This document shows positions 547 to 26,519 of a stretch of 37,103 nucleotides of DNA, in pieces. The notes beneath the pieces were generated by a model, which was given only the letters and a program-made list of their open reading frames with translations, was not told where the DNA came from and searched no databases. The stretch's first letter is position 1. Every line of letters starts with the position of its first letter. Both the position numbers and the translations under genes were made by a program. Source of the stretch: a virus; the IMG/VR virus record IMGVR_UViG_3300046698_000089, positions 1-37,103 of that record. One strand, written 5' to 3'.

Positions 547-900
547 TTAAATCCTGCGAGTGATGCGGGCGGCGGGCCTGTCTACTTCTGGTACTGGGAA
601 TGTGGGCAGCGGAGTGGCGGGCTTGTTGTGGATGTTGTGGCGAGGCTTGTGCAGGGCGATCAAGGCGGGCAGCAAGAGAGCGGCCCGATCTGTTGCACAG
701 ACGATGATCTGTACGTCGTCGAATTGAATGCGCTTGATGGGGAACCATTCGGGCAGGCGAGGACCGGTGTTGGCTGCGCGATGAGCAGCCAAGGTCACAA
801 GTAAACACTTGGACTTGCCAATGAACACGATCTTCCCGTAGTGCAGGAGTTGATACACTCCAGGCTTTAGGATGTCGCCAATGCTAACCGGATTCTCCAA
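547..900 (-). CDS. GIY-YIG-fold protein, probably without nuclease activity
   Basis: 117 aa from a TTG start at 898-900; AGGAGA lies 8 bases upstream and there is no in-frame ATG. Residues 13-28 (PGVYQLLHYGKIVFIG) match the GIY and YIG strands, and residues 74-89 (ALLLPALIALHKPRHN) match the end of the domain in UvrC (ALLLEHNLIKLYQPRYN). By that alignment, from memory of UvrC, the catalytic Arg is Thr36 and the metal-binding Glu is Leu77, so nuclease activity is unlikely. The tail after residue 93 is proline-rich. The gene sits just upstream of the small-terminase-like gene, which suggests a packaging or DNA-binding role (inference). Confidence 0.7.
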   Translation of the reverse strand: MENPVSIGDILKPGVYQLLHYGKIVFIGKSKCLLVTLAAHRAANTGPRLPEWFPIKRIQFDDVQIIVCATDRAALLLPALIALHKPRHNIHNKPATPLPTFPVPEVDRPAARITRRI

Positions 901-1146: not shown

Positions 1147-1197
1147 CAGTGTGGCAGTTGGGCCACACTGTGCGTTGATTAGTGAGCGATGCTCACT
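1147..1197 (-). other. two perfect hairpins between gene end and terminator
   Basis: Stem CAGTGTGGC/GCCACACTG (1147-1155 with 1162-1170, 6-base loop) and stem AGTGAGC/GCTCACT (1181-1187 with 1191-1197, 3-base loop). The second overlaps the stop codon of the minus-strand gene at 1193-1444. Neither has a T tract. They may protect or process the 3' end of the transcript (inference). With the hairpin at 1092-1114 they make three perfect hairpins in about 105 bases. The stretch from 901 to 1192 shows no convincing gene. Confidence 0.5.
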
Positions 1198-1444
1198 TAG
1201 CGGGCTTGGTGGTCAGCACCGCAGCGTGTGTGGCGATGAATGCCTCGATGTCAGGGACAGCGGCGATGAGGCGCTCCCACTGGCTGCGGTAGAGCGTGAC
1301 GGGCCATTGGCCCATGCCGTACAGGGACAGCGCGCCTTTTTCGGAGACTTTCAGAGTGAGGCGGGATTGGCTGGCCTTGGACATTGCCTCGATGATGGCC
1401 AGCAGTTCGTCCTTGGACTTGGAGGCGAGGTTCAGATCGGTCAT
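1193..1444 (-). CDS. small conserved phage protein, unknown function
   Basis: 83 aa with a strong site (AGGAG) 9 bases before its ATG. Residues 32-56 (KVSEKGALSLYGMGQWPVTL and following) resemble a short protein seen in many phages and bacteria with a KVSEKG..S.YG.G..PVTLY pattern; I do not know a function for it. It is the first gene of the minus-strand transcript leaving the control region at 1445-2030, so it may be made early or in large amounts. It is followed by three hairpins. No membrane segment or cysteines are seen. Confidence 0.75.
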   Translation of the reverse strand: MTDLNLASKSKDELLAIIEAMSKASQSRLTLKVSEKGALSLYGMGQWPVTLYRSQWERLIAAVPDIEAFIATHAAVLTTKPAK

Positions 1445-1569: not shown

Positions 1570-1734
1570 ATGTCGCATTGACGCCGCCAGGCGATGTGGC
1601 GCATACTGATCGGGCCAGGCATGTAACCTATGCATACACTCGTACTCTCAAGGTCTAACCTGCACCTGAGTCCCTAGCTGCCATAGTCCCTGTCAGCTCG
1701 ATATGGCATGCCATGGTACTGCTATTCTCCTGCC

Positions 1735-1764
1735 ATAGTACTGTAGTTTCCCTGTACGTTTGAA
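1735..1764 (-). promoter_or_regulatory. candidate leftward promoter in the left arm
   Basis: On the minus strand TTCAAA (1759-1764), an 18-base spacer, then TACTAT (1735-1740). Both hexamers match the sigma70 consensus at 4 of 6 positions. It occupies the mirror-image place of the rightward promoter candidate at 1899-1927 and its -10 overlaps one of the repeated motifs. It would drive the minus-strand genes from 1444 leftwards. Confidence 0.4.
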
Positions 1765-1898
1765 TAAGTCACTAAATGTCACTCATTTCCATTTCACACC
1801 TTCCAAACTAAATTCTTGTTAAAAAAAAAAACTTTGATAAGTAAGTAAGATTAGGTTAGAGGGGTCGAGATGAGAATTAGTGACATTGTGTGACTTAT

Positions 1899-1927
1899 TT
1901 GATGCTACAGGGAAATAACAGTATGAT
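1899..1927 (+). promoter_or_regulatory. candidate rightward early promoter in the right arm
   Basis: TTGATG (1899-1904), a 17-base spacer, TATGAT (1922-1927). The -10 matches the sigma70 consensus at 5 of 6 positions and the -35 at 4 of 6. It lies about 100 bases upstream of the first plus-strand gene. The -10 is inside the first unit of the 11-bp tandem repeat at 1919-1951, so a protein bound to the repeats would block or shift polymerase (inference). Confidence 0.5.
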
Positions 1928-1951
1928 GGCAGTATGATGGCAGTACTATGG
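1919..1951 (+). repeat. three tandem 11-bp repeats overlapping the promoter
   Basis: CAGTATGATGG at 1919-1929 and 1930-1940, then CAGTACTATGG at 1941-1951, followed by CATGCC. The period is one helical turn, so three bound protein units would lie on one face of the DNA. Each unit contains a -10-like hexamer. The left arm keeps the outer two sites but its middle site is degenerate. Confidence 0.75.
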
Positions 1952-2030
1952 CATGCCAAAGCGAAGTGACGGGGACTATGGCAGGCGGGACGGCAGGGCA
2001 GCCAGGACGCTGTGACAAGGAGTTTAGCAA

Positions 2031-2261
2031 ATGACCAACAGATCAATGCCAGTGGTAGCGATCAGTCTCATGCCGTATGTGTATGGTAGCGATATGCGGT
2101 ATCACCCGGCGATTAGGCATGGTAGCCAGGTATGGTACTGGCCGAATATTACCTACAGCACCGAGAAGGGAGCTTATGATTGGGCTAACAGTGCGCTGGA
2201 AAATATTAGGTTTGGTGCTCAGAGTATTGTGGATGAATGGAATCTGTATCCAATCGACTAG
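2031..2261 (+). CDS. early protein of unknown function
   Basis: 76 aa; AAGGAG lies 8 bases before the ATG, a strong start. This is the first gene of the rightward transcript. The sequence is rich in Tyr and Trp (VWYWPNITYSTEKGAYDWAN) and has no recognised motif or membrane segment. First early genes of phages often act on the host (general knowledge), but nothing here shows which target. Confidence 0.7.
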   Translation: MTNRSMPVVAISLMPYVYGSDMRYHPAIRHGSQVWYWPNITYSTEKGAYDWANSALENIRFGAQSIVDEWNLYPID

Positions 2262-3520: not shown

Positions 3521-3768
3521 AAGTCTTGCTGATCTGGGATAGCTGCGGACAAAATAGTCCAGCATTGTACTTCGTTACTGGCGATAGTGCCAAGATTGCA
3601 TTAGCTGCGCATGGCCAGTACATCAATAGCGACGACGATGAAACTGAGAATACTGACAAGATAAAGGAGCTACTCGACTCACAAAGTACATCAAAAGACT
3701 TCGCTATGGTTAATACCACGAAGCCTGATAACTATGATGCTATTAGCATCTGTGGTTGGTTGCCTTAA
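3517..3768 (+). CDS. early protein of unknown function
   Basis: 83 aa; AGGAG 7 bases before the ATG, overlapping the previous stop. It begins with a hydrophobic strand (MKVLLIWDSCGQNSPALYFV) and has an acidic middle (SDDDETENTD near residues 38-47). No conserved motif recognised. It is followed by a 184-base gap holding a structured element. Confidence 0.7.
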   Translation: MKVLLIWDSCGQNSPALYFVTGDSAKIALAAHGQYINSDDDETENTDKIKELLDSQSTSKDFAMVNTTKPDNYDAISICGWLP

Positions 3769-3952: not shown

Positions 3953-4603
3953 ATGCCCATGAATGTGTTTGAAGTCGCCGTCGCCAAAGCCGGAAAGGAC
4001 GCCAAGCTTACCGTTGACGTCAGTGCGCTTACCGACGAGATGTATGAACTGGTCATGGCCGAAGGGCTCAAGACCATTCTCAACAGTCGCATGTCCAAGG
4101 TCGGACCGGTGACTAAGTACGCCAAGGAAGGCAACGTCGACGAGCTTACCAAGGCCCAAGACCTTGCCCTCAAGATCGCCACGGACAACCTTAGCAAGTT
4201 GCTCGCTGGCGAAGTCAAAGCCAAGTCCAGAGCTGCCAAGTCTGATCTCCCTCGGGAGATCATCACTGAAGCTCGCCGTATCGCTCGGGACATTGTTAAA
4301 AACCAAATCCGTGCGGCCGGCGGTAAGCCCAGTCACTACTCTGCCAAAGACATCACCGCAGCGGCCGATGAGTTCATCAAGAACGATCCGTCCATTGTCG
4401 AGGATGCCAAGGAAGCACTCGCCAAGCGTACCAGCAACAAGCCTACCGTGGACATCAAGTCTCTTATCCACGAGTCCCCGACCCTCGTTGCCAAGGCCAA
4501 GGCCAAGTCCGAAGCTAACAAAGCTCCGGGTTTGAGTGCGAAGCAGGCCGGTATGGTCCCGACTCGCAAGAAAGGCCAGGCGCCTCAGCATACGAGTCAC
4601 TAA
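3953..4603 (+). CDS. Lys/Ala-rich protein with a GGKP-type repeat domain, unknown function
   Basis: 216 aa from ATG 3953, with AAGG about 9 bases upstream; a TTG at 3944 in frame is less likely. Residues 1-90 are mixed helical. Residues 105-160 hold the domain shared with the 61-aa protein at 2636 (RIARDIVKNQIRAAGGKPSH and following). The C terminus (165-216) is basic and low in complexity (LVAKAKAKSEANKAPGL). Codons are GC-rich compared with its neighbours. The high Lys/Ala content suggests a nucleic-acid-associated protein (inference). Confidence 0.8.
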   Translation: MPMNVFEVAVAKAGKDAKLTVDVSALTDEMYELVMAEGLKTILNSRMSKVGPVTKYAKEGNVDELTKAQDLALKIATDNLSKLLAGEVKAKSRAAKSDLPREIITEARRIARDIVKNQIRAAGGKPSHYSAKDITAAADEFIKNDPSIVEDAKEALAKRTSNKPTVDIKSLIHESPTLVAKAKAKSEANKAPGLSAKQAGMVPTRKKGQAPQHTSH

Positions 4604-14524: not shown

Positions 14525-14742
14525 ACTGGCAGCCCATCGAGACTTGTCCTAAGCCGCCTAAGACTGGCGAGTACAGCATTCCATTCCTCGTTTGGGATGG
14601 TGACAATATAGTGGTTGCAACCTGTTTTAGCTACACAAATACCCACAAACTGTTTTGTGTTGCTGATTCCTATGGATTTAACGAAGACGGCGAAATCCCT
14701 AATCCAACGCACTGGATGCCTTTGCCTGAGCCGCCTAAATGA
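14521..14742 (+). CDS. DUF551-like protein
   Basis: 73 aa. It opens MNWQPIETCPK and closes NPTHWMPLPEPPK, the two ends typical of DUF551 phage and bacterial proteins, with PFLVWDGDNIVVAT between them. Function unknown for the family. It is an AT-rich gene between GC-rich neighbours, ATGA-coupled on both sides. Confidence 0.8.
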   Translation: MNWQPIETCPKPPKTGEYSIPFLVWDGDNIVVATCFSYTNTHKLFCVADSYGFNEDGEIPNPTHWMPLPEPPK

Positions 14743-15863
14743 CTCGCATCGTCCTCCTCGCCGAAGCCCAAGGCGAAGCCGAGGCCAAGCATGGTTCTAC
14801 ATTGATTGGCGCCTCGGGCATCGAGCTACTCCGCATGATGTCTGAGGCCGAGCTAATCACCCTCAGTCCCGTCGACCGCGACCTGATTCACAAATACTAC
14901 CTCACCAACGACAATCGCCACATCATGGCCCTGTGGGATAACCACCCTGAGGTCTATCGCACCAATGTGTTCAACCAACATCCACCCGCAAATAACATCA
15001 ACTGGTTCCTGGGAGCTAAATCAGACGCGCTTCCCGGCTATCCAGCCGCCCGTATTGATATCAAAAAGATTCGCCCAGCTGGTCCCTACGTTCGTAGAGA
15101 GTTTGCGCATGAACTAGAACGTCTCGGCGATGAGCTTCTTGATAAGAACCCAAACGTAGTTGTCTGTCTTGGCAACTACGCGCTATGGGCTATGGCTGGT
15201 CGAGTTGGTATCGGCAGTATTCGCGGGACAACACTACTATCCACACACACCGTAGCGAACTTTAAGTTACTACCAACCTTTCATCCATCAGCTGTGCTAC
15301 AGAACTATGACTTACGTCCAATCGTCATCGCCGATCTGATGAAAGCCACTCGCGAATCAGCCCATCCCGACATACGGAGACCCGAACGTGAAATCTGGAT
15401 CGAGCCGACGGTTGAAGACATTGAAAACTTTACAGAATCCTACATCAGAGGATGTGATCTCCTTTCTATCGACATTGAAACTGCTGGAGACCGTATCACA
15501 TGCATTGGATTCGCACCTAACAGTCGAATTGCGCTGGTTGTGCCATTCGATGACGCGCGTGCAGCAGATAGAAACTTTTGGACTTCTATCGAAGACGAGC
15601 ATGCAGCTTGGCAGATTGTTAAGTGCATTCTCGGAGATATAACAATCCCCAAGCTCTTTCAAAACGGGGCCTACGACATAGCCTTCCTATGGCGCTCCAT
15701 GCACATCAAAGTCTACGGCGCAACCGAAGACACCATGCTCCTAAACCACGCCCTACAACCAGAGATGCTCAAAAACCTCGGCTTCCTCGGATCGATCTAC
15801 TCCGACGAGCGATCCTGGAAGGGCATGGCGAAGCACGGAAAGACTATTAAGAGGGATAACTAA
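14739..15863 (+). CDS. UDG-like domain fused to the first part of a family A 3'-5' exonuclease domain
   Basis: 374 aa. Residues 5-205 resemble a uracil-DNA glycosylase-superfamily domain: AEAQGEAEAKHGSTLIGASG near 8-27, TNVFNQHPP near 75-83, VVVCLGNYALWAM at 140-152, and the FHPSAVL motif at 181-187. Residues 238-345 are the start of a DNA polymerase I-type exonuclease: Exo I Asp245/Glu247 (SIDIETAG) and Exo II Asn309/Asp313 (QNGAYD). Exo III is missing here and lies in the next polymerase gene (16114). The UDG-like part may serve as DNA-binding or processivity domain rather than as an active glycosylase (inference). The stop overlaps the ATG of the intervening gene (TAATG). Confidence 0.85.
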   Translation: MTRIVLLAEAQGEAEAKHGSTLIGASGIELLRMMSEAELITLSPVDRDLIHKYYLTNDNRHIMALWDNHPEVYRTNVFNQHPPANNINWFLGAKSDALPGYPAARIDIKKIRPAGPYVRREFAHELERLGDELLDKNPNVVVCLGNYALWAMAGRVGIGSIRGTTLLSTHTVANFKLLPTFHPSAVLQNYDLRPIVIADLMKATRESAHPDIRRPEREIWIEPTVEDIENFTESYIRGCDLLSIDIETAGDRITCIGFAPNSRIALVVPFDDARAADRNFWTSIEDEHAAWQIVKCILGDITIPKLFQNGAYDIAFLWRSMHIKVYGATEDTMLLNHALQPEMLKNLGFLGSIYSDERSWKGMAKHGKTIKRDN

Positions 15864-16117
15864 TGCAAGATCTAAAATCAGGTTCATTCTATTGGGTTAA
15901 GCCAGTATTTGATGTAGACTTTACACCGCCAGGCTTTGAAAATATAGAGTGGAATGACGCAGCCTTCGAAGCTTCAATTAATAATTGGCGACAACAAGAT
16001 CAGCCAGCCAGATTTGTTGGTTATGACATCAATGAGCAAGAGATTTGGTTGTTTATTGGTGTAGAAGATGACAAGCCATGGCCGGTGTGCTGGATTGGTG
16101 CAGAGATTAAACAATGA
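15863..16117 (+). CDS. small AT-rich gene inserted between the two parts of the DNA polymerase
   Basis: 84 aa; GAGGG upstream, TAATG overlap with the exonuclease part and ATGA overlap with the polymerase part. The sequence is acidic and aromatic (FDVDFTPPGFENIEWNDAAF; QEIWLFIGVEDDKPWPVCWI). It shows no polymerase, intein or homing endonuclease motif. Its codons are AT-rich compared with both polymerase parts. It splits the exonuclease coding region between Exo II and Exo III. Its function is unknown. Confidence 0.75.
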   Translation: MQDLKSGSFYWVKPVFDVDFTPPGFENIEWNDAAFEASINNWRQQDQPARFVGYDINEQEIWLFIGVEDDKPWPVCWIGAEIKQ

Positions 16118-17622
16118 AAATCATCCGCACCCACAAGGACGATCTGGACTCCCTGCCTGAATGGGATAAATACCAATGCTACAACGGCTTGGATTGTTTA
16201 GTGACTCGCGATGTTTTTGATTCTATCTGCCCCCAACTCGATGAGCACACCGCAGCGACCTACGCCTTTAGCAAAGCCCTCCAAGGCCCCACCCTCGAGA
16301 TGCGCATTAGAGGTGTGCTAGTCGACCAAGCCCGGCGCATGGAAGTCATCGACGAACTATACGAAGCCGGCGAGATTCTCCTTCGCAACCTCGAACGCAT
16401 AGTCCTCGAAGGCTGCGGGCTACCCCACTTCAACTGGCGCAGCACCAACGATCTGCAGAACCTATTTTATGATGTCCTCGGTCTCAAGCCCATCACTCGC
16501 CAAGGCAAGCGCACCACCGACATCAAAGCTCGCGAGAAGCTACAGGTTCATCCCATAGCGACTCAGATTGTTAAGCACATCAACACCCTCAGCGAATTGG
16601 GAGATAAGATCAGTGTCCTCAGAACAGCGAATGATCCGGATGGTCGAATTAGAACATCTTATAACATTGCAGGAACGAGCACTGGAAGATTTTCATCCAG
16701 CCTCAGCGAATTTGGTACTGGCGGAAACCTCCAAAATATTGAGGAGAGTCTACGATCGATCTTCATCGCCGACCCAGGCTACAAATTCGCCAAGTGCGAC
16801 GCCAAGTCCGGCGAGTCATACTGCGTCGGAGCCGTCGAGTGGAATCGATTTGGCGACGGAGCTTACCTTGATGCAGTCGAGTCTGGAGATGTGCATACAG
16901 CAGTCGCCAGGATCGTTTGGCCTAACATGGAATGGACTGGACACCTTACACAGGATAAGCACATCGCTGAGCAACCTTTCTATCGCAATCACTCATATCG
17001 CTTCATGTGTAAAAAGCTTGGCCATGGCTCAAACTACAACGGCCAGCCCGCCAACCTCTCCGAGCAAGCCAACCTCGACATCGCCATCGTCAGCGAGTTC
17101 CAACGCAAATACTTCCTTGCCTTCCCGGCTCACCGGCGATGGCAAGCTGACGTTGACTCCCGACTTCGTTCAGTGGGACATCTTGTCTCGCTCACTGGCC
17201 GCAAACGCTGGTTTTTTGGACGTAGAAATGATCCCGCCACGCTCCGGGAGGCGATTGCTTATGACCCTCAATGCTCCCTCGCTGACAACGTTAACCGAGC
17301 GATGATTAGCATATGGAGGGATCGGCTGTCTCTCATCGTCATGCACGATCACGACGCATTAACCTTCATGTACCCCGAGGAAGTTGAAGATGAACTCATT
17401 CCCCAGCTTCTACGTGCACTGGTGGTGCCCATCCCTCTGGCTCAGGGACGTGTATTGCGAATCCCATACGACGTGGAGGTGGGATGGAACAAGGGACACT
17501 ATCATCCCACCACAAATCCGGACGGTCTGCGAGCCTACTCGGGCCATGACCCCCGCAAACGACAACCGGTAAGAGGGTTGTTGGATAGTATTGTTAAGAA
17601 ACGAATCGGTGGAGCAAGATGA
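16114..17622 (+). CDS. family A DNA polymerase, polymerase part with Exo III at its N terminus
   Basis: 502 aa. Residues 20-30 (YQCYNGLDCLV) carry Exo III (Tyr23, Asp27), which completes the exonuclease site begun in the previous protein. Polymerase motifs: TSTGRFSS (188-195), NLQNIE (205-210), motif A around Asp229 (KCDAKSGES), motif B RFMCKKLGHGSNYNG (296-310), and motif C MHDHDAL (410-416). It is the replicative polymerase. The 3'-5' proofreading site can only form if the two polypeptides assemble. No thumb or finger motif appears lost. ATGA overlaps link it to both neighbours. Confidence 0.9.
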   Translation: MKIIRTHKDDLDSLPEWDKYQCYNGLDCLVTRDVFDSICPQLDEHTAATYAFSKALQGPTLEMRIRGVLVDQARRMEVIDELYEAGEILLRNLERIVLEGCGLPHFNWRSTNDLQNLFYDVLGLKPITRQGKRTTDIKAREKLQVHPIATQIVKHINTLSELGDKISVLRTANDPDGRIRTSYNIAGTSTGRFSSSLSEFGTGGNLQNIEESLRSIFIADPGYKFAKCDAKSGESYCVGAVEWNRFGDGAYLDAVESGDVHTAVARIVWPNMEWTGHLTQDKHIAEQPFYRNHSYRFMCKKLGHGSNYNGQPANLSEQANLDIAIVSEFQRKYFLAFPAHRRWQADVDSRLRSVGHLVSLTGRKRWFFGRRNDPATLREAIAYDPQCSLADNVNRAMISIWRDRLSLIVMHDHDALTFMYPEEVEDELIPQLLRALVVPIPLAQGRVLRIPYDVEVGWNKGHYHPTTNPDGLRAYSGHDPRKRQPVRGLLDSIVKKRIGGAR

Positions 17623-20460: not shown

Positions 20461-20625
20461 TTAGAACAACCCAAGCAAACGCAGAATAACCAACAACAAA
20501 ATAATCCCCACGATCCCTCCGCCCCAGCCATAGGTCCTGCCAGGGAACTCGGTGTGCCAGCCTCCGTAGTAGCCCCCTCCACCGATCAGCAACAACATGA
20601 TGATTAGTACAACAAGTATGTTCAT
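20461..20625 (-). CDS. small membrane protein, DUF3309-like
   Basis: 54 aa, starting in a TGATG overlap with the 1964-aa gene. Two hydrophobic ends (NILVVLIIMLLLIGGG and GGGIVGIILLLVILRLLGLF) flank a short Gly/Tyr/Trp loop (YYGGWHTEFPGRTYGW). The Gly-Gly-Tyr pattern resembles DUF3309 family proteins. It may be a second holin or antiholin, given its place just before the holin-like gene (inference). Confidence 0.7.
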   Translation of the reverse strand: MNILVVLIIMLLLIGGGGYYGGWHTEFPGRTYGWGGGIVGIILLLVILRLLGLF

Positions 20626-23600
20626 CACTTGCTCCTATCATAACGACCAGCGAGATAATCCGCACCGGTCTGCGAATGACCCTTGAGGGTCCCGTACCTA
20701 CCCAAGACCAGCCAGCCCCAGGGACCCCGAGGCCGTTCATGGCCAGTCGCTACGCCATACGCGGCGCTAAGCTCCTTGGCCAGTTGTTGGGGGATGCCGG
20801 TCAGTACCCCTACTAGCCCGCCAGCATCGCGGATCATTTTCTCGGCGTGTTGGGGACTGAACCAATCTTTTTTGTTCAAGTCCCGAACCGCATCGGTAAA
20901 CTCCTTAGCAAATGTCGTGGCTAGACCAATATCCGGGTCCTTGCCTTCAAGCATTCCATTAACCACGTCCCGAATCCCGGGCCAGCTAGCCGAGGCCGTG
21001 TAGGCCAGGCCCTTAGCGGCCTTGTGTGCCCAGGAGTCCTGCGGTTCGCTGGGCAACGGACTGACCATCTGCTCCACAATCGCTGGCCAGATTGCATACG
21101 CAAACATTCCTCCAGCCACCGCCGGGATCGCTGCCATGGCCGCTCCATGCTGGCCTTCCTTAGCCAAGTCCACAGCTTCGCCGGCTTTCCACAGCGTCTC
21201 CATCTGACGGTTCATAATATCATTGAAGAAGTTATACACCGAGGTTAGCCATCCGCCAGCGACATTGGTGATCGCCGGGCGATTGGATGCAGCCGTAGAC
21301 CCATGCGCCCTGCGCACCGCTCGATCAGCCTCAAACACTGCGTCACCATGTGTCGCCCCCTCCTCCATGGCCTTGCCATACTGCGCCATCCAGGTCGGCA
21401 CCGCGGAGATAATGTCCGACATAGCAACTGGTTTGCTGGACAGCTGCATTATCTTTGCTCGCCAGGTACCGAACTTGGATCCGGCCTGGAGTTCATTAGT
21501 AGCCCCGTACAGTGTCTCTTGCCAGTTGCGATCGCGACGTTGTAGTTCCAGACTGTTCTTAATAGCAAAGTCCCAGTTCTTCTCGCCGGTTTCATCGTTA
21601 ATACTAAACAGCGACTTGACCGCATCAAAGAACCTTCCGGCCCCAACCTCGTGCATGGACAACATCGCTGCCGTTGGGGCATGCTTCAACACTGTCCCTG
21701 GGTTCCACCCTACCAGGGTAGTGATCAGGTTCTGCCGCACAAAGTCGCTGCTGGACTGCAACCAAGCCGATTCCTTCGATACATTGTTACTGGCATTCGC
21801 AATGCCCCGCAGCCAAGGGACCATGTTGTCCGAGTACTCCTTGCCATAATGCGTTGTAATAGCCCCTCGCACGGCCTTATCCCGCAACACCTTCGCTGCA
21901 TTCAACACCGCCGGTCGCAGGGCCGTGTCGTGGATCATCTGGCTGAGCCGGTTGGGCATCTGGTTCAGATCGAGGGCTAGGGGATAGGTCACCCCAGTTC
22001 GGGACTTAGTGTACCCCGCCGGCGTATACCCCGCCTCAAACCCCTCGCCCATCAGACCTTCAAGCTTAGTAAACTTCGCCGGCTCCCCGCCCCAGATCGG
22101 GTGGCGCATGGCTGGGTAGTATCCGCCGCGATAGGTACCGAACGGGGTCTCAGCAGCCCTAGCCGGAATCGACTCCGCTGGCACCCCGGAGATCGACCGA
22201 TACATCGTATCGCTACGGCCCTTCATTTCATCAAACGTATCCCAGATCTTCTGAGCGAAGTCCCAATCAGGCTTCTTGGCATTGGCATGAACCCAGGCCA
22301 TAATCGCATCAGGCTCAAGGCCATAGCCCTTAGCGAGCTTCATCATGTTGGATTTGTTACCAACATTAAGCATCACCGCCCGCAGGTTCTCGCGGTTCAT
22401 GGTGATGAGTGTATCGCCATATTCCTTCGGTCGCCGGAAGATGCTGTTAGGTATCGCCTGCTTCATATCCTCCTTATCCCCGGCATCTTTCAGCTTCCTA
22501 GCAAACTCCTTTTTCCAAGCATCTGATTGATTCACACCGTCGTGCAGGTCCCTGAACACATACTGAGTCCAATTCCCATATGGATCAAACTTATCCCAGC
22601 GACCGAACACGTTCTCCATCTGCAGAGTGCTAGCCAAGAACGCTCTGGGGAACTTGCTGATCATAGTCCCGCCAGTCTCGGTCTGGGCATTACCTTTAAA
22701 CCTAGCTACAGCCTCAACCAGCTTGGGCTTAATCTCCTGCCAGTCAGCCTCAACGCCTTGTTTGATGATCTTGCGTTCGTCGCGACCATTGTGGACTAGG
22801 GCATCAATAGACCCGGCCACGGCTCGAAACTCGGGGACCTTGAGATCCTTATACTCAGCCTTGAAGTTGGCATTATACAACTGATCCCAAACAGGAATCT
22901 CCCGCAGCCACACGGCTTTGTTAGCGACAAACTCTGGCAGCGTATTACCACTACCAGCCGCCTCAGTCTCTCGCTGCAAGTCCCCAGGTGTTCGCTTAAC
23001 CTTCTTGCCGACCTGGGCAAGAATCGAATGTATCCAGTTAGTATACTCCGGTTCAATCCCCGGCTGCACCCTCGCGGCCAGTTTCTTAGCAGTCTTATCG
23101 AACTTAGCAACTTCCTTTTCGACCTTGCGGGCTTCCTGGGCCACGGCCATCGTGACAGTCTGCTTCTGCATTGCCACAGCCGCGGACTTGAAGTCCTGCG
23201 CTGCCATGGCCTTCTCAGCATCTCGGCTATGCTTGCCCATGGTTTGCATCAGCGCGTAGGTATTGACCTTACCGATGGTTTGTTCATTGATCAGGTCCCG
23301 GGCAGCCTGCTTGATAGTATCCTTGTCAAACGCCGTGGTGCCGGCTTTCATAGCCGCTGCCATTAGCTGTTCGTGCATAACATTGAACGATGCTTCACTC
23401 AGCGCTTGATCCCTTGCATCCTCCATGATGTTCTTTTCTAGGAACCCATGTTCCCGTTCCATCCGGCGATCAGTCTCGGACTGAATAGTCTGGCGCAGGA
23501 ACTCGCCGGTTGGCATCCGAGTACCTTCGGGGGTGCGCTTGGCTTGTTCCAGAGTTGCTAGCCGATCAACCATCTCGGCCCCGGTGCTATACCCAAACAT

Positions 23601-26519
23601 ACTAGCGACCTGATCAGGCGGTAGACCATTCTTGCTAACATACTCTTTCGGCAACGCAGCCTTTTGTTCAGGTGTAAGCTCATCGGCTGCCAGAGTATAT
23701 CTCTGTCGAAGCTTCTTGCCAAACAACTCACCATTGCCCAAGAACAAATCCGCAGCCACATCCGGTCGCTGGCGAATATCCACAGCCACAGTCTTCGCCA
23801 TCTCGGCCCGGTTGGCTTTCCACTCAGCCCCCTGCCGCTTGGTCTGCTCCGCAACGGCTCGCTTCTGCGCAACCTCAATATCCGCCTCGTGCTGCTTTTC
23901 CATAGCAGCTTGAATACGGCGGAAGGTGTCTTTATCAATGCCCAGCGACTCGGCTTTGATGTTATCGAAGCCCTCAATTGACTCCCTAATATCAAACGCC
24001 CCGACAGCCCTAGGCTCGCCAGCAGGCCGCTCGCCAACCTCCCCCGAGTGAATCTTCTGAAACACTGACTCCCAGGTTTCTTCGGGACCGAAGCCGAGTT
24101 TGGATTTGATGCCATCTAACAAATCCATAATCTTCTGGAACACAGCCCCAACGCCAGTCTTCGGCCGAACCTCTGGTGCTTGCTTGGCCCACTCGCGGAA
24201 GGCCTCCGCAACCGACTCCTCAGTACGCTGTTCATCAGTCACATGTGCATAGCGATCATTGATCCCATACCGATCCGCCCAGTTCTCAGCCTTAGCCGCG
24301 GACTCCAGCGTAGACCACTCCGCATCCTTAAAGAACCCGTACCCGCGCAGGAAATGAATTGCCTCATGCCTGCCAGTCCCAACAGCATCATCCCTTAACA
24401 TATCCAACAATATAGTCGGCGGTGCACCTTTAAATGGTACATATGCCCCGCCAGCAAATGACTTGGCCCGCTGACTATACAACCCAGCAGTGGGTTCAAT
24501 CTCGATCTTCTTCCCAGTAATCCGCTGGAGCTCGTCCATAGCAGCATTGGAGAAATCAACTTGCTTCTGAGTCCATTGCACAGCCTCAGGATCACGCTTT
24601 AGCAGCGATGAGTTCTGATACCGACTCCAACCATTCTCTAGCACATCCCGGCTACGCTGGAAGTCTTGAGCTGTAATATCATCCGCATCAAGCTTCACCC
24701 TAGGCAGCGGCATCGGCCCGAAGTCATCGGCACCACTAGCTTCCCGGGCACCAGACACACGATGACCAGTGATATAGTCGTAGTCTGGATACATGCCCTT
24801 AATCTGTCGCTTCAAATCCCGCATTAGAGCCGGGCCAAAGCTATTCGCCCACCTACCAGCGACACCGTTGATCATATTGATATACAGCGTGCGATCTGCA
24901 CCGGGTGCAATCTCAATATCACCAACGTGCTTACCATTCTCATCCATCATGTTCAGGGTTTCAAGCTTGCCGCCGAATTCATCGGTGAACTGGTTAGCTT
25001 CGGTAGCGCCCTTAATGAGACTAATCTTTCGGTCCCCAATGCTAAACATCGGCTCCAGTCCACTCGCTCCCCTCACCGCGGCCAGAGGCGCATCCACCAC
25101 GGCCTTGGGCTGTGTTGGTTCTTCTTCCGCTTCGCGGGCTGTGATACCACCGGGCCACATACGAATGTCATCATGCAATCCCTTTGCTACTTGCGGATCA
25201 GCCTTGGTGATCCAGTCCTTGATGGGCACCTGAATATCGCTGTCAGTGTCTCGAGCTCCCATAAGCTGGGACTCGATGTTCGGCACCCAGCCTAACAAAC
25301 CGTCATCGGGCATTGGTGGCTTATCGCCATACAGTCCCAGTGCCGCATCGGCACGAATGCCAATGGTGTTGTCCCCATATCGCTGCTCAGCCAGCACTCC
25401 AGCTAGTTCCGGGCTGCGTTCCCGAGTCGCTGCCTTCTGCATGTTCTCGAAGTCTCGCTCCATATTCGCAACAGCGAGCATGTTGATTTGAGTCTTGGCC
25501 TCGTCAATCAGCGGATGCACACCCGAAGGCACAGGCACTCCAGCATCAGTCCATGGCTTTGCAGAAGTCGCTACATCTGGCAGGCCCAGCCCGGCTCGCA
25601 GCGCAGTATTCCCACGCTCGGCTGCCCCAGCTTCGGTCTGCGCCCGCTCTACAGTAGACGCTTTGCCTTGAGATATTCGAGTAGCATACTCCTGGACTTG
25701 TGGATCACTAAACGCCTTTCTAGGCGGAATCGGTGGCGGGGCTTCGCTACCGCCAATCAGCTTTCCAACCTCAGCCGGGATATGCATCCCCAATGCCACT
25801 AATACGGCATTGGTAGTATCAAGCAGCGATGCCTGAGCCAACGCCGGGTCTTGTTGCTTTCCGGCTGCCCAGGTAGCGAACTCTTTGAACCCCGGTATGT
25901 CGGTCGCAGCCTGTGCAAGCATAGATGCATAGCCGCCAAATTCCTGGCCAGGTACGGCTGCGACCTGAGTTAATGCTGCTAGTACAGCCCCGCCCAATCG
26001 GCCATACTTCTGCTGACCCTCAAGACGTTGCTCGGGAGTATAGGCCTCACCCCAGCCTTGTACCCCCGCTTCCTTAATCCTCTCAGCCTCAACAGCAATC
26101 CCTGTGCTACCTTGCACAAGCCCGTGCAGCAAATCAGTAAGTGTATGCGACTCCCGTGTGAACTTGTCTAGGTTCCCCCAGTCATCATTGGAGACCGACG
26201 CGGCCATGGGATGGGATTGAAGATAGGTAACCAAATCGGGATTGTTCAGCACCAGTTGCTGCGCAGCGAATTTCTTGATCTGCGCCTTCTGTTCATCCAG
26301 GTTGTTCAACGTCCACGGGGCCGGGGCACCGGTAATGTTGGACAGATCAGTCGCCTCAGCAGCATCATCCGGGTTTGCATCCAGGCCCTGATTAACCTGT
26401 ACCGCCGTATCGGTGCGGAAGCTATTCAGCCCGCGTGCAACATCGTCCTTGCCGATGTAATACGGATCGACCATCGGATCGAACTCAGTATCAGGATTCA
26501 TGGGGGTTAGTTGGTTCAC
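20625..26519 (-). CDS. giant internal virion protein, gp16-like, with metallopeptidase-type HEAIH motif
   Basis: 1964 aa from GTG 26519 (GAGAGGG 7 bases upstream; ATG 26501 is an alternative). By size and order it corresponds to the T7 gp16 class of ejected core proteins that help DNA entry. Residues 718-722 are HEAIH followed by FLRGYGFF, and residues 767-772 (EESVAE) could give the third zinc ligand, so a gluzincin-like peptidase is likely. A long coiled-coil section lies near 875-970 and 1120-1200. The C terminus (from about 1560) is helical and ends in a WLVLGRYGTL motif. I see no lytic transglycosylase signature. Confidence 0.8.
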   Translation of the reverse strand: MNQLTPMNPDTEFDPMVDPYYIGKDDVARGLNSFRTDTAVQVNQGLDANPDDAAEATDLSNITGAPAPWTLNNLDEQKAQIKKFAAQQLVLNNPDLVTYLQSHPMAASVSNDDWGNLDKFTRESHTLTDLLHGLVQGSTGIAVEAERIKEAGVQGWGEAYTPEQRLEGQQKYGRLGGAVLAALTQVAAVPGQEFGGYASMLAQAATDIPGFKEFATWAAGKQQDPALAQASLLDTTNAVLVALGMHIPAEVGKLIGGSEAPPPIPPRKAFSDPQVQEYATRISQGKASTVERAQTEAGAAERGNTALRAGLGLPDVATSAKPWTDAGVPVPSGVHPLIDEAKTQINMLAVANMERDFENMQKAATRERSPELAGVLAEQRYGDNTIGIRADAALGLYGDKPPMPDDGLLGWVPNIESQLMGARDTDSDIQVPIKDWITKADPQVAKGLHDDIRMWPGGITAREAEEEPTQPKAVVDAPLAAVRGASGLEPMFSIGDRKISLIKGATEANQFTDEFGGKLETLNMMDENGKHVGDIEIAPGADRTLYINMINGVAGRWANSFGPALMRDLKRQIKGMYPDYDYITGHRVSGAREASGADDFGPMPLPRVKLDADDITAQDFQRSRDVLENGWSRYQNSSLLKRDPEAVQWTQKQVDFSNAAMDELQRITGKKIEIEPTAGLYSQRAKSFAGGAYVPFKGAPPTILLDMLRDDAVGTGRHEAIHFLRGYGFFKDAEWSTLESAAKAENWADRYGINDRYAHVTDEQRTEESVAEAFREWAKQAPEVRPKTGVGAVFQKIMDLLDGIKSKLGFGPEETWESVFQKIHSGEVGERPAGEPRAVGAFDIRESIEGFDNIKAESLGIDKDTFRRIQAAMEKQHEADIEVAQKRAVAEQTKRQGAEWKANRAEMAKTVAVDIRQRPDVAADLFLGNGELFGKKLRQRYTLAADELTPEQKAALPKEYVSKNGLPPDQVASMFGYSTGAEMVDRLATLEQAKRTPEGTRMPTGEFLRQTIQSETDRRMEREHGFLEKNIMEDARDQALSEASFNVMHEQLMAAAMKAGTTAFDKDTIKQAARDLINEQTIGKVNTYALMQTMGKHSRDAEKAMAAQDFKSAAVAMQKQTVTMAVAQEARKVEKEVAKFDKTAKKLAARVQPGIEPEYTNWIHSILAQVGKKVKRTPGDLQRETEAAGSGNTLPEFVANKAVWLREIPVWDQLYNANFKAEYKDLKVPEFRAVAGSIDALVHNGRDERKIIKQGVEADWQEIKPKLVEAVARFKGNAQTETGGTMISKFPRAFLASTLQMENVFGRWDKFDPYGNWTQYVFRDLHDGVNQSDAWKKEFARKLKDAGDKEDMKQAIPNSIFRRPKEYGDTLITMNRENLRAVMLNVGNKSNMMKLAKGYGLEPDAIMAWVHANAKKPDWDFAQKIWDTFDEMKGRSDTMYRSISGVPAESIPARAAETPFGTYRGGYYPAMRHPIWGGEPAKFTKLEGLMGEGFEAGYTPAGYTKSRTGVTYPLALDLNQMPNRLSQMIHDTALRPAVLNAAKVLRDKAVRGAITTHYGKEYSDNMVPWLRGIANASNNVSKESAWLQSSSDFVRQNLITTLVGWNPGTVLKHAPTAAMLSMHEVGAGRFFDAVKSLFSINDETGEKNWDFAIKNSLELQRRDRNWQETLYGATNELQAGSKFGTWRAKIMQLSSKPVAMSDIISAVPTWMAQYGKAMEEGATHGDAVFEADRAVRRAHGSTAASNRPAITNVAGGWLTSVYNFFNDIMNRQMETLWKAGEAVDLAKEGQHGAAMAAIPAVAGGMFAYAIWPAIVEQMVSPLPSEPQDSWAHKAAKGLAYTASASWPGIRDVVNGMLEGKDPDIGLATTFAKEFTDAVRDLNKKDWFSPQHAEKMIRDAGGLVGVLTGIPQQLAKELSAAYGVATGHERPRGPWGWLVLGRYGTLKGHSQTGADYLAGRYDRSK

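Follow-up and report, generated by a model that had tools for sequence, protein, structure and literature searches.

Our analysis of the IMG/VR virus record IMGVR_UViG_3300046698_000089 over its whole length (positions 1 to 37,103; hereafter the window), a record that lacks part of the genome, revealed an imperfect palindrome built from two facing arrays of 11-bp repeats. Elements of the same design occupy the same place in the phages related to it, and together they apparently represent an undescribed DNA element of a whole uncultured phage lineage; our search of the literature, limited in coverage, turned up no account of one. Judging from its sequence features, we put the probability that the element is a bidirectional iteron-type replication origin at about 0.5. 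This reading was preferred because of the facing arrays, the unstable dyad, the presence of a single copy and the skew peak.

Two facing arrays of 11-bp repeats

An earlier reading of this DNA (the original prediction) had proposed two 113-bp arms with about 89 matching positions counted by hand. Computed alignment gave the same value, 89/113 without gaps, for arms at 1678-1790 and 1872-1984 that enclose an 81-bp core and are centred at 1831. The symmetry continues inward, with inverted-repeat detection returning 134-nt arms at 77% identity, and the segment 1678-1984 aligns with its reverse complement at E 3e-47. The ungapped palindrome score was 56.5; when the 1300-bp region was shuffled 100 times with its dinucleotide composition preserved, the best score was 13.5, so that the likeness of the arms is above chance.

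Perfect copies of TGCCATNNTACTG lie at 1709 and 1731 on the plus strand and at 1919, 1930 and 1941 on the minus strand, with a copy carrying two mismatches at 1720 (+). The copies sit at exact mirror positions about 1831, as had been claimed, and the five perfect ones have no counterpart elsewhere in the window. The true unit is an 11-bp tandem repeat: a scan of unit lengths from 9 to 13 bp peaked at 11 (1.05 per column), with at most 0.82 for the other lengths and 0.57 for shuffled sequence. With an 11-bp unit, the copies in each arm are spaced about one helical turn apart and the two arms face each other.

A second inverted repeat (1516-1583; 34-nt arms, 76%, TTGACGCACC..GGTGCGTCAA) lies between the element and the adjoining gene for an 83-amino-acid protein. 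It is terminator-like on the minus strand.

Occurrence of the element in related phages

Relatives were gathered using two proteins; L and G numbers below are our handles for them. A search with the 83-amino-acid protein gave 34 viral contigs, rising to 80 when it was used as a profile. Within this first set, most members of the same terminase lineage that extend far enough carry a large inverted repeat of 11-bp arrays at the same place, with a repeat word that differs from the window's. The layout was examined in 46 relatives, and 47 elements, including that of the window, were aligned arm to arm. When the units were aligned in phase, a common frame CYNATNNNCCC was obtained, in which positions 1-3 and 6-8 are variable; the unit word is GCCATNNTACT in the window and GCCATNNTCCT in L007. 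Matches to the window's word in other viral contigs were limited to L005 and L007, those in L280 and L281 being due to chance. The motif spacing is kept in relatives, where both the 11-bp lag and the inverted arrays are retained, while the word itself is nearly phage-specific. Inner inverted boxes are also present in relatives and are phage-specific there.

The hypothesis had been built on loci derived from the 83-amino-acid protein; an independent set of 33 contigs not seen before was then gathered via the small terminase. A strict inverted pair of 11-bp arrays was present in 13 of these, 0.8-1.5 kb upstream of the terminase gene, and the same strict test returned 0/31 downstream regions and 0/33 shuffles. 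Twelve further loci of this set, some of them near-identical, showed on inspection an inverted repeat scoring at least 16 at 0.7-1.9 kb upstream. Because the element was found again in a set derived from the terminase, we regard it as a near-universal feature of this phage lineage. In all eight genomes scanned (8/8), tandem repeats were confined to the element, with one site per genome.

Creation by inverted duplication, as suggested in the original prediction, is possible, but the layout is old and lineage-wide with differing words. A chance or neutral duplication with no function would agree with the unusual likeness of the window's arms, whose arm-to-arm score of 72.8 compares with at most 20.8 to any other phage. 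It is contradicted by conservation in the independent set and by the recurrence of the same architecture, at the same place and with different words, in dozens of divergent phages, and we consider it hardly tenable. In 23 of 43 phages, each arm resembles its partner in that phage more closely than it resembles the corresponding arm of any other. Given this likeness within phages and a lineage-wide layout with different words, we conclude that the arms are co-maintained or homogenised and are not the relic of one recent event.

Searches outside the lineage returned little. A DNA-similarity search of cultured phages gave no useful match, and no close lineage member was found among 50,697 cultured-phage records, where a 216-amino-acid early protein of the window had 0 matches and the small terminase a single match at 29%. 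Rfam and tRNA searches gave no match. An attachment site or protelomerase telomere was considered and rejected, as no integrase or protelomerase family was present among the window proteins scanned. Two phages without 11-bp arrays, L085 and L087, carry a different near-perfect inverted repeat of 29 bp with a 145-bp loop, placed 179 bp upstream of a gene related to the 83-amino-acid gene. The late-side array is closely flanked on its outer side by a recurring ATCACGAAATGTTACA word, or else by a CACGA..TCGTG hairpin, in several relatives (L010, L036, L063, L034 and others); this is perhaps a terminator or a host-type regulatory site.

An unstable centre and a skew peak

Duplex stability was calculated from nearest-neighbour energies over 50-bp stretches, with stretches within 10 bp of the centre taken to represent the dyad. 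In 9 of 12 genomes, the dyad ranked within the least stable 0.7% of genomic stretches (Fisher p 1.6e-14). In three records (the window, G001 and G008), no stretch is less stable than the dyad; in the window, about 0.01% of stretches are as unstable as the centre.

In each of the 11 longest relatives, cumulative GC skew reached its maximum at the element (-2.3 to +1.7 kb). Where informative, the skew minimum lay at 15-30 kb, often well past the point at which gene orientation switches and usually nearer the antipode than that point, while in G003 and G012 the skew was too one-sided to locate a minimum. Third-codon-position skew over 437 genes showed a replichore term of -0.103 (bootstrap standard deviation (SD) 0.020) that is independent of gene strand, together with a gene-strand term of -0.134 (SD 0.018). 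The skew change anticipated at 1831 was not seen in the window, whose peak is at 3669 in this incomplete record.

The proposal of an iteron origin is thus supported, though not proven, by the inverted 11-bp arrays, the single copy, the weak centre and the skew peak. Tandem, phased, near-identical repeats, adjacent low-stability DNA (9/12 genomes) and a unique site (8 genomes) are all features of iteron origins. The replication genes in the window, encoding DNA polymerase A, a DUF3987 protein, a Sak4-like annealing protein and an exonuclease, were also counted for an origin.

Several observations weigh against it. The sign of the skew is the reverse of the bacterial rule, the sequence being C-rich to the right of the element, which would mean a terminus. 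Gene orientation flips at the element too, which partly confounds the skew. In G005 and G009, the instability of the dyad is unremarkable. The small-terminase gene lies only 0.8-1.5 kb away, which fits a packaging site too, and no protein among the small terminase (TerS), the GIY-YIG nuclease, the large terminase (TerL), the 83-amino-acid and the 216-amino-acid proteins covaries with the repeat word more conspicuously than the others after partialling.

A packaging site as the alternative

The proximity to TerS raises the possibility of a pac- or cos-like packaging site, at which rings of the helix-turn-helix TerS would wrap the phased arrays on both sides and TerL would cut the core. The element is always found just upstream of the TerS gene, in the order element, (83-amino-acid gene), GIY-YIG, TerS, TerL. 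Published work places adjacent helix-turn-helix motifs of small terminase rings about one B-DNA turn apart and suggests that DNA may wrap the ring (PMC4737164); such a spacing would fit the 11-bp phasing. The SPP1/SF6 pac (pacL-pacC-pacR) likewise has two repeat-bearing regions around a central stretch near the TerS gene, with pacL and pacR of SPP1 on either side of the cut (PMC4737164), but the repeats of the phage element differ in their strict phasing, their inversion and their word specificity. A terminus would be consistent with the sign of the skew. Correlation with the repeat word was slightly better for the helix-turn-helix segment of TerS (0.32) than for the rest of the protein (0.19).

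On the other hand, an identical TerS recognition helix, YSYNRLLQLR, occurs with three different words (L011, L022 and L028), and, as noted above, no protein stands out after partialling. Directional packaging needs no inverted symmetry, and a pac site is not expected to have the least stable dyad. The distant Caulobacter phage Kuura, the only cultured phage with a TerS match (29%), has a TerS of this type and lacks the element. Four genomes have end overlaps of 66-123 nt with scattered junctions and look circular or permuted; circular permutation would suit packaging, whereas junctions that are scattered and do not fall within the core speak against it, and such scatter is compatible with both a pac site and an origin. 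Taken together, we rate a packaging site as less likely than an origin, yet as a serious competitor that carries more weight than the alternatives discussed below.

Separately, contig ends in the small-terminase set seem to cluster slightly just past the element, at 1.5-2.0 kb upstream of the terminase; by visual count, 11 of the 37 ends that lie within 3 kb fall there. These could be assembly breaks or real ends.

Promoters and transcription control

In 33 of the 47 elements, a sigma-70-like promoter matching at 10 or more of 12 positions borders the early-side array on its outer side, 95-190 bp from the centre. No promoter of that grade was found outside the late-side array in any of the 47, nor in shuffled sequences. 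The mirrored promoter-like hexamers of the original prediction are weak in the window (9/12 on the right, 8/12 on the left, little better than shuffled sequence) and are not a family feature, because the strong promoter is on the early side only. A two-sided genetic switch, which would have comparable promoters on both sides, finds no support in this distribution.

A more general form of transcription control would involve a repressor or activator that forms a polymer on the arrays and loops or wraps the region, thereby toggling between the early promoter and leftward transcription of the late genes. The location at the divergence point, the multiple phased sites and the frequent early-side promoter agree with such a role. 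The lack of a late-side match in all 47 elements and the 9/12 score of the window's own early promoter do not, and the low-stability core and full inner symmetry would be left unaccounted for. The repeats also occur nowhere else in the genome, which leaves no regulon. We therefore judge this explanation improbable.

Proposed mechanism and comparison with known systems

If the element is an origin, a phage-encoded initiator would bind the 11-bp repeats as a polymer along one helix face of each arm. The facing arms would allow two initiator complexes to assemble head to head, and these may open the unstable centre, so that one replication fork would be loaded in each direction. Early expression would come from the promoter outside the early-side array, which may also assist in opening the site.

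Alphaherpesvirus origins, with their OBP/UL9 boxes, offer one comparison, and oriL, like the phage element, lies between divergent genes. In herpes simplex virus (HSV) oriS, inverted boxes lie on either side of an AT-rich spacer (PMC12543377), an arrangement shared by the phage element, which differs in having 3-4 phased copies per arm and a word that varies between phages. No UL9/OBP helicase family turned up in Pfam scans of the window proteins, in which no directed search for it was made. As the element belongs to phages, the likeness to HSV oriS is at most convergent. Iteron origins of plasmids and phage satellites (PLE RepA iterons, PMC7145576; lambda ori) share the tandem repeats, the easily melted neighbouring DNA and the single site, but typically have one array on one side, in contrast to the two facing arrays of 11-bp units here.

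A centromere-like partition site was also considered. The parC site of R1-type plasmids has two sets of direct 11-bp repeats that are bound by ParR, and its function needs ParM and ParR. The phage element resembles it in having two sets of 11-bp repeats near a promoter, but its sets are inverted, no ParA, ParM or ParR family was found among the window proteins scanned, of which small early ones have no assigned family, and the gene content is of a lytic type with little use for partition. A partition role is very improbable.

Candidate readers of the repeats

The 83-amino-acid protein was rejected as the obligatory reader of the repeats, as no copy of its gene was found in L127 (G027) or L163 (G029), which have strict arrays. 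Its predicted structure (pLDDT 87) had the single-stranded-DNA-binding domains of PC4, MoSub1, PUR-alpha and Whirly among its best matches, with Z at most 4.5, and a PC4/PUR/Whirly-like single-stranded-DNA-binding fold is a weak lead from the model. No Pfam or PHROG family could be assigned to the protein. The family is also widespread in bacteria, with at least 557 stretches in genomes of Acidobacteria, Bdellovibrionota and Proteobacteria; when it was used to look for a host, a terminase of this type was present in 0/80 of the bacterial loci (L198-L277). For the 216-amino-acid early protein, also a candidate reader, a fold search gave no match.

Gene neighbourhood

The gene order is early rightward genes (including that for the 216-amino-acid protein), element, 83-amino-acid gene, GIY-YIG nuclease, small terminase, large terminase and portal (Table 1). 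The large terminase is of the epsilon15 kind, the portal belongs to PF12236 and the small terminase contains a helix-turn-helix. In every case the element separates the terminase genes from the early genes, including about ten relatives in which the 83-amino-acid gene is reversed relative to the element and terminase block (L040, L044, L083, L067, L072, L020, L053, L009, L075 and L070). All 18 contigs tested carry the 216-amino-acid protein, and the long ones mostly carry the polymerase and DUF3987 protein as well, so that mosaicism cannot separate the element from the terminase or the replication genes.

Table 1. Features of the element and of the genes around it in the window
Feature	Position	Strand	Remarks
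Small terminase (TerS), with helix-turn-helix	1..560	-	Cut by the contig end; 29% to the annotated TerS of Kuura; upstream of TerL in relatives
GIY-YIG-like nuclease gene	547..900	-	Homologue in L036 matches PF01541, E 3e-5
83-amino-acid protein	1193..1444	-	Adjoins the element; PC4/PUR/Whirly-like fold predicted (weak); not in all element-bearing phages
Whole imperfect palindromic element	1678..1984	none	Dyad at 1831; arms 89/113; self-match
Late-side arm iterons	1679..1742	+	Outer copy 1679-1690 and three tandem 11-bp units 1710-1742
Late-side tandem units	1710..1742	+	GCCATGGTACT, GCTATTCTCCT, GCCATAGTACT
Late-side arm, inner part	1748..1790	none	CCCTGTA..AATAAGTCAC..AATGTCACT; mirror copy 1872-1914
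A-rich core	1808..1858	none	No 50-bp stretch in the record is less stable than the centre
Early-side arm iterons	1920..1952	-	Three tandem 11-bp units GCCATAGTACT, GCCATCATACT, GCCATCATACT
First rightward (early-side) open reading frame	2031..2261	+	One homologue, L040
216-amino-acid early protein	3953..4603	+	In 18/18 lineage contigs tested; candidate reader

Other genes of the window and its relatives have features of their own. The family A DNA polymerase is split over two open reading frames within 14739-17622 (+), with an 84-amino-acid frame between them; the first (14739-15863) holds a uracil-DNA-glycosylase domain and a 3'-5' exonuclease, the second (16114-17622) the polymerase domain. 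A protein of 1964 amino acids with an LPD22 domain is encoded at 20625-26519 (-) and is probably a large polyvalent or ejected protein. In the closest relative (L003:2182-4707), the large terminase has 841 amino acids with a LAGLIDADG/Hom_end insert, probably an intein.

Implications

Tentatively, and at somewhat less than even odds, the element may define an undescribed class of phage origin, with symmetric two-armed iterons of 3-4 inverted 11-bp units per arm, an unstable dyad and a near-phage-specific word, so that the initiator of each phage may be restricted to the DNA of that phage; alternatively, it may be one site for both the start of replication and the start of packaging. For a lineage with no close cultured relative, a single cis-element that can be recognised by its geometry gives a direct handle on replication and packaging. 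A search for this geometry, two inverted arrays with an 11-bp lag, is applicable to other phages where sequence searches fail. If the element is an origin, its initiator would be findable by binding assays, and a fast-changing word on a fixed scaffold would resemble an incompatibility code between phages.
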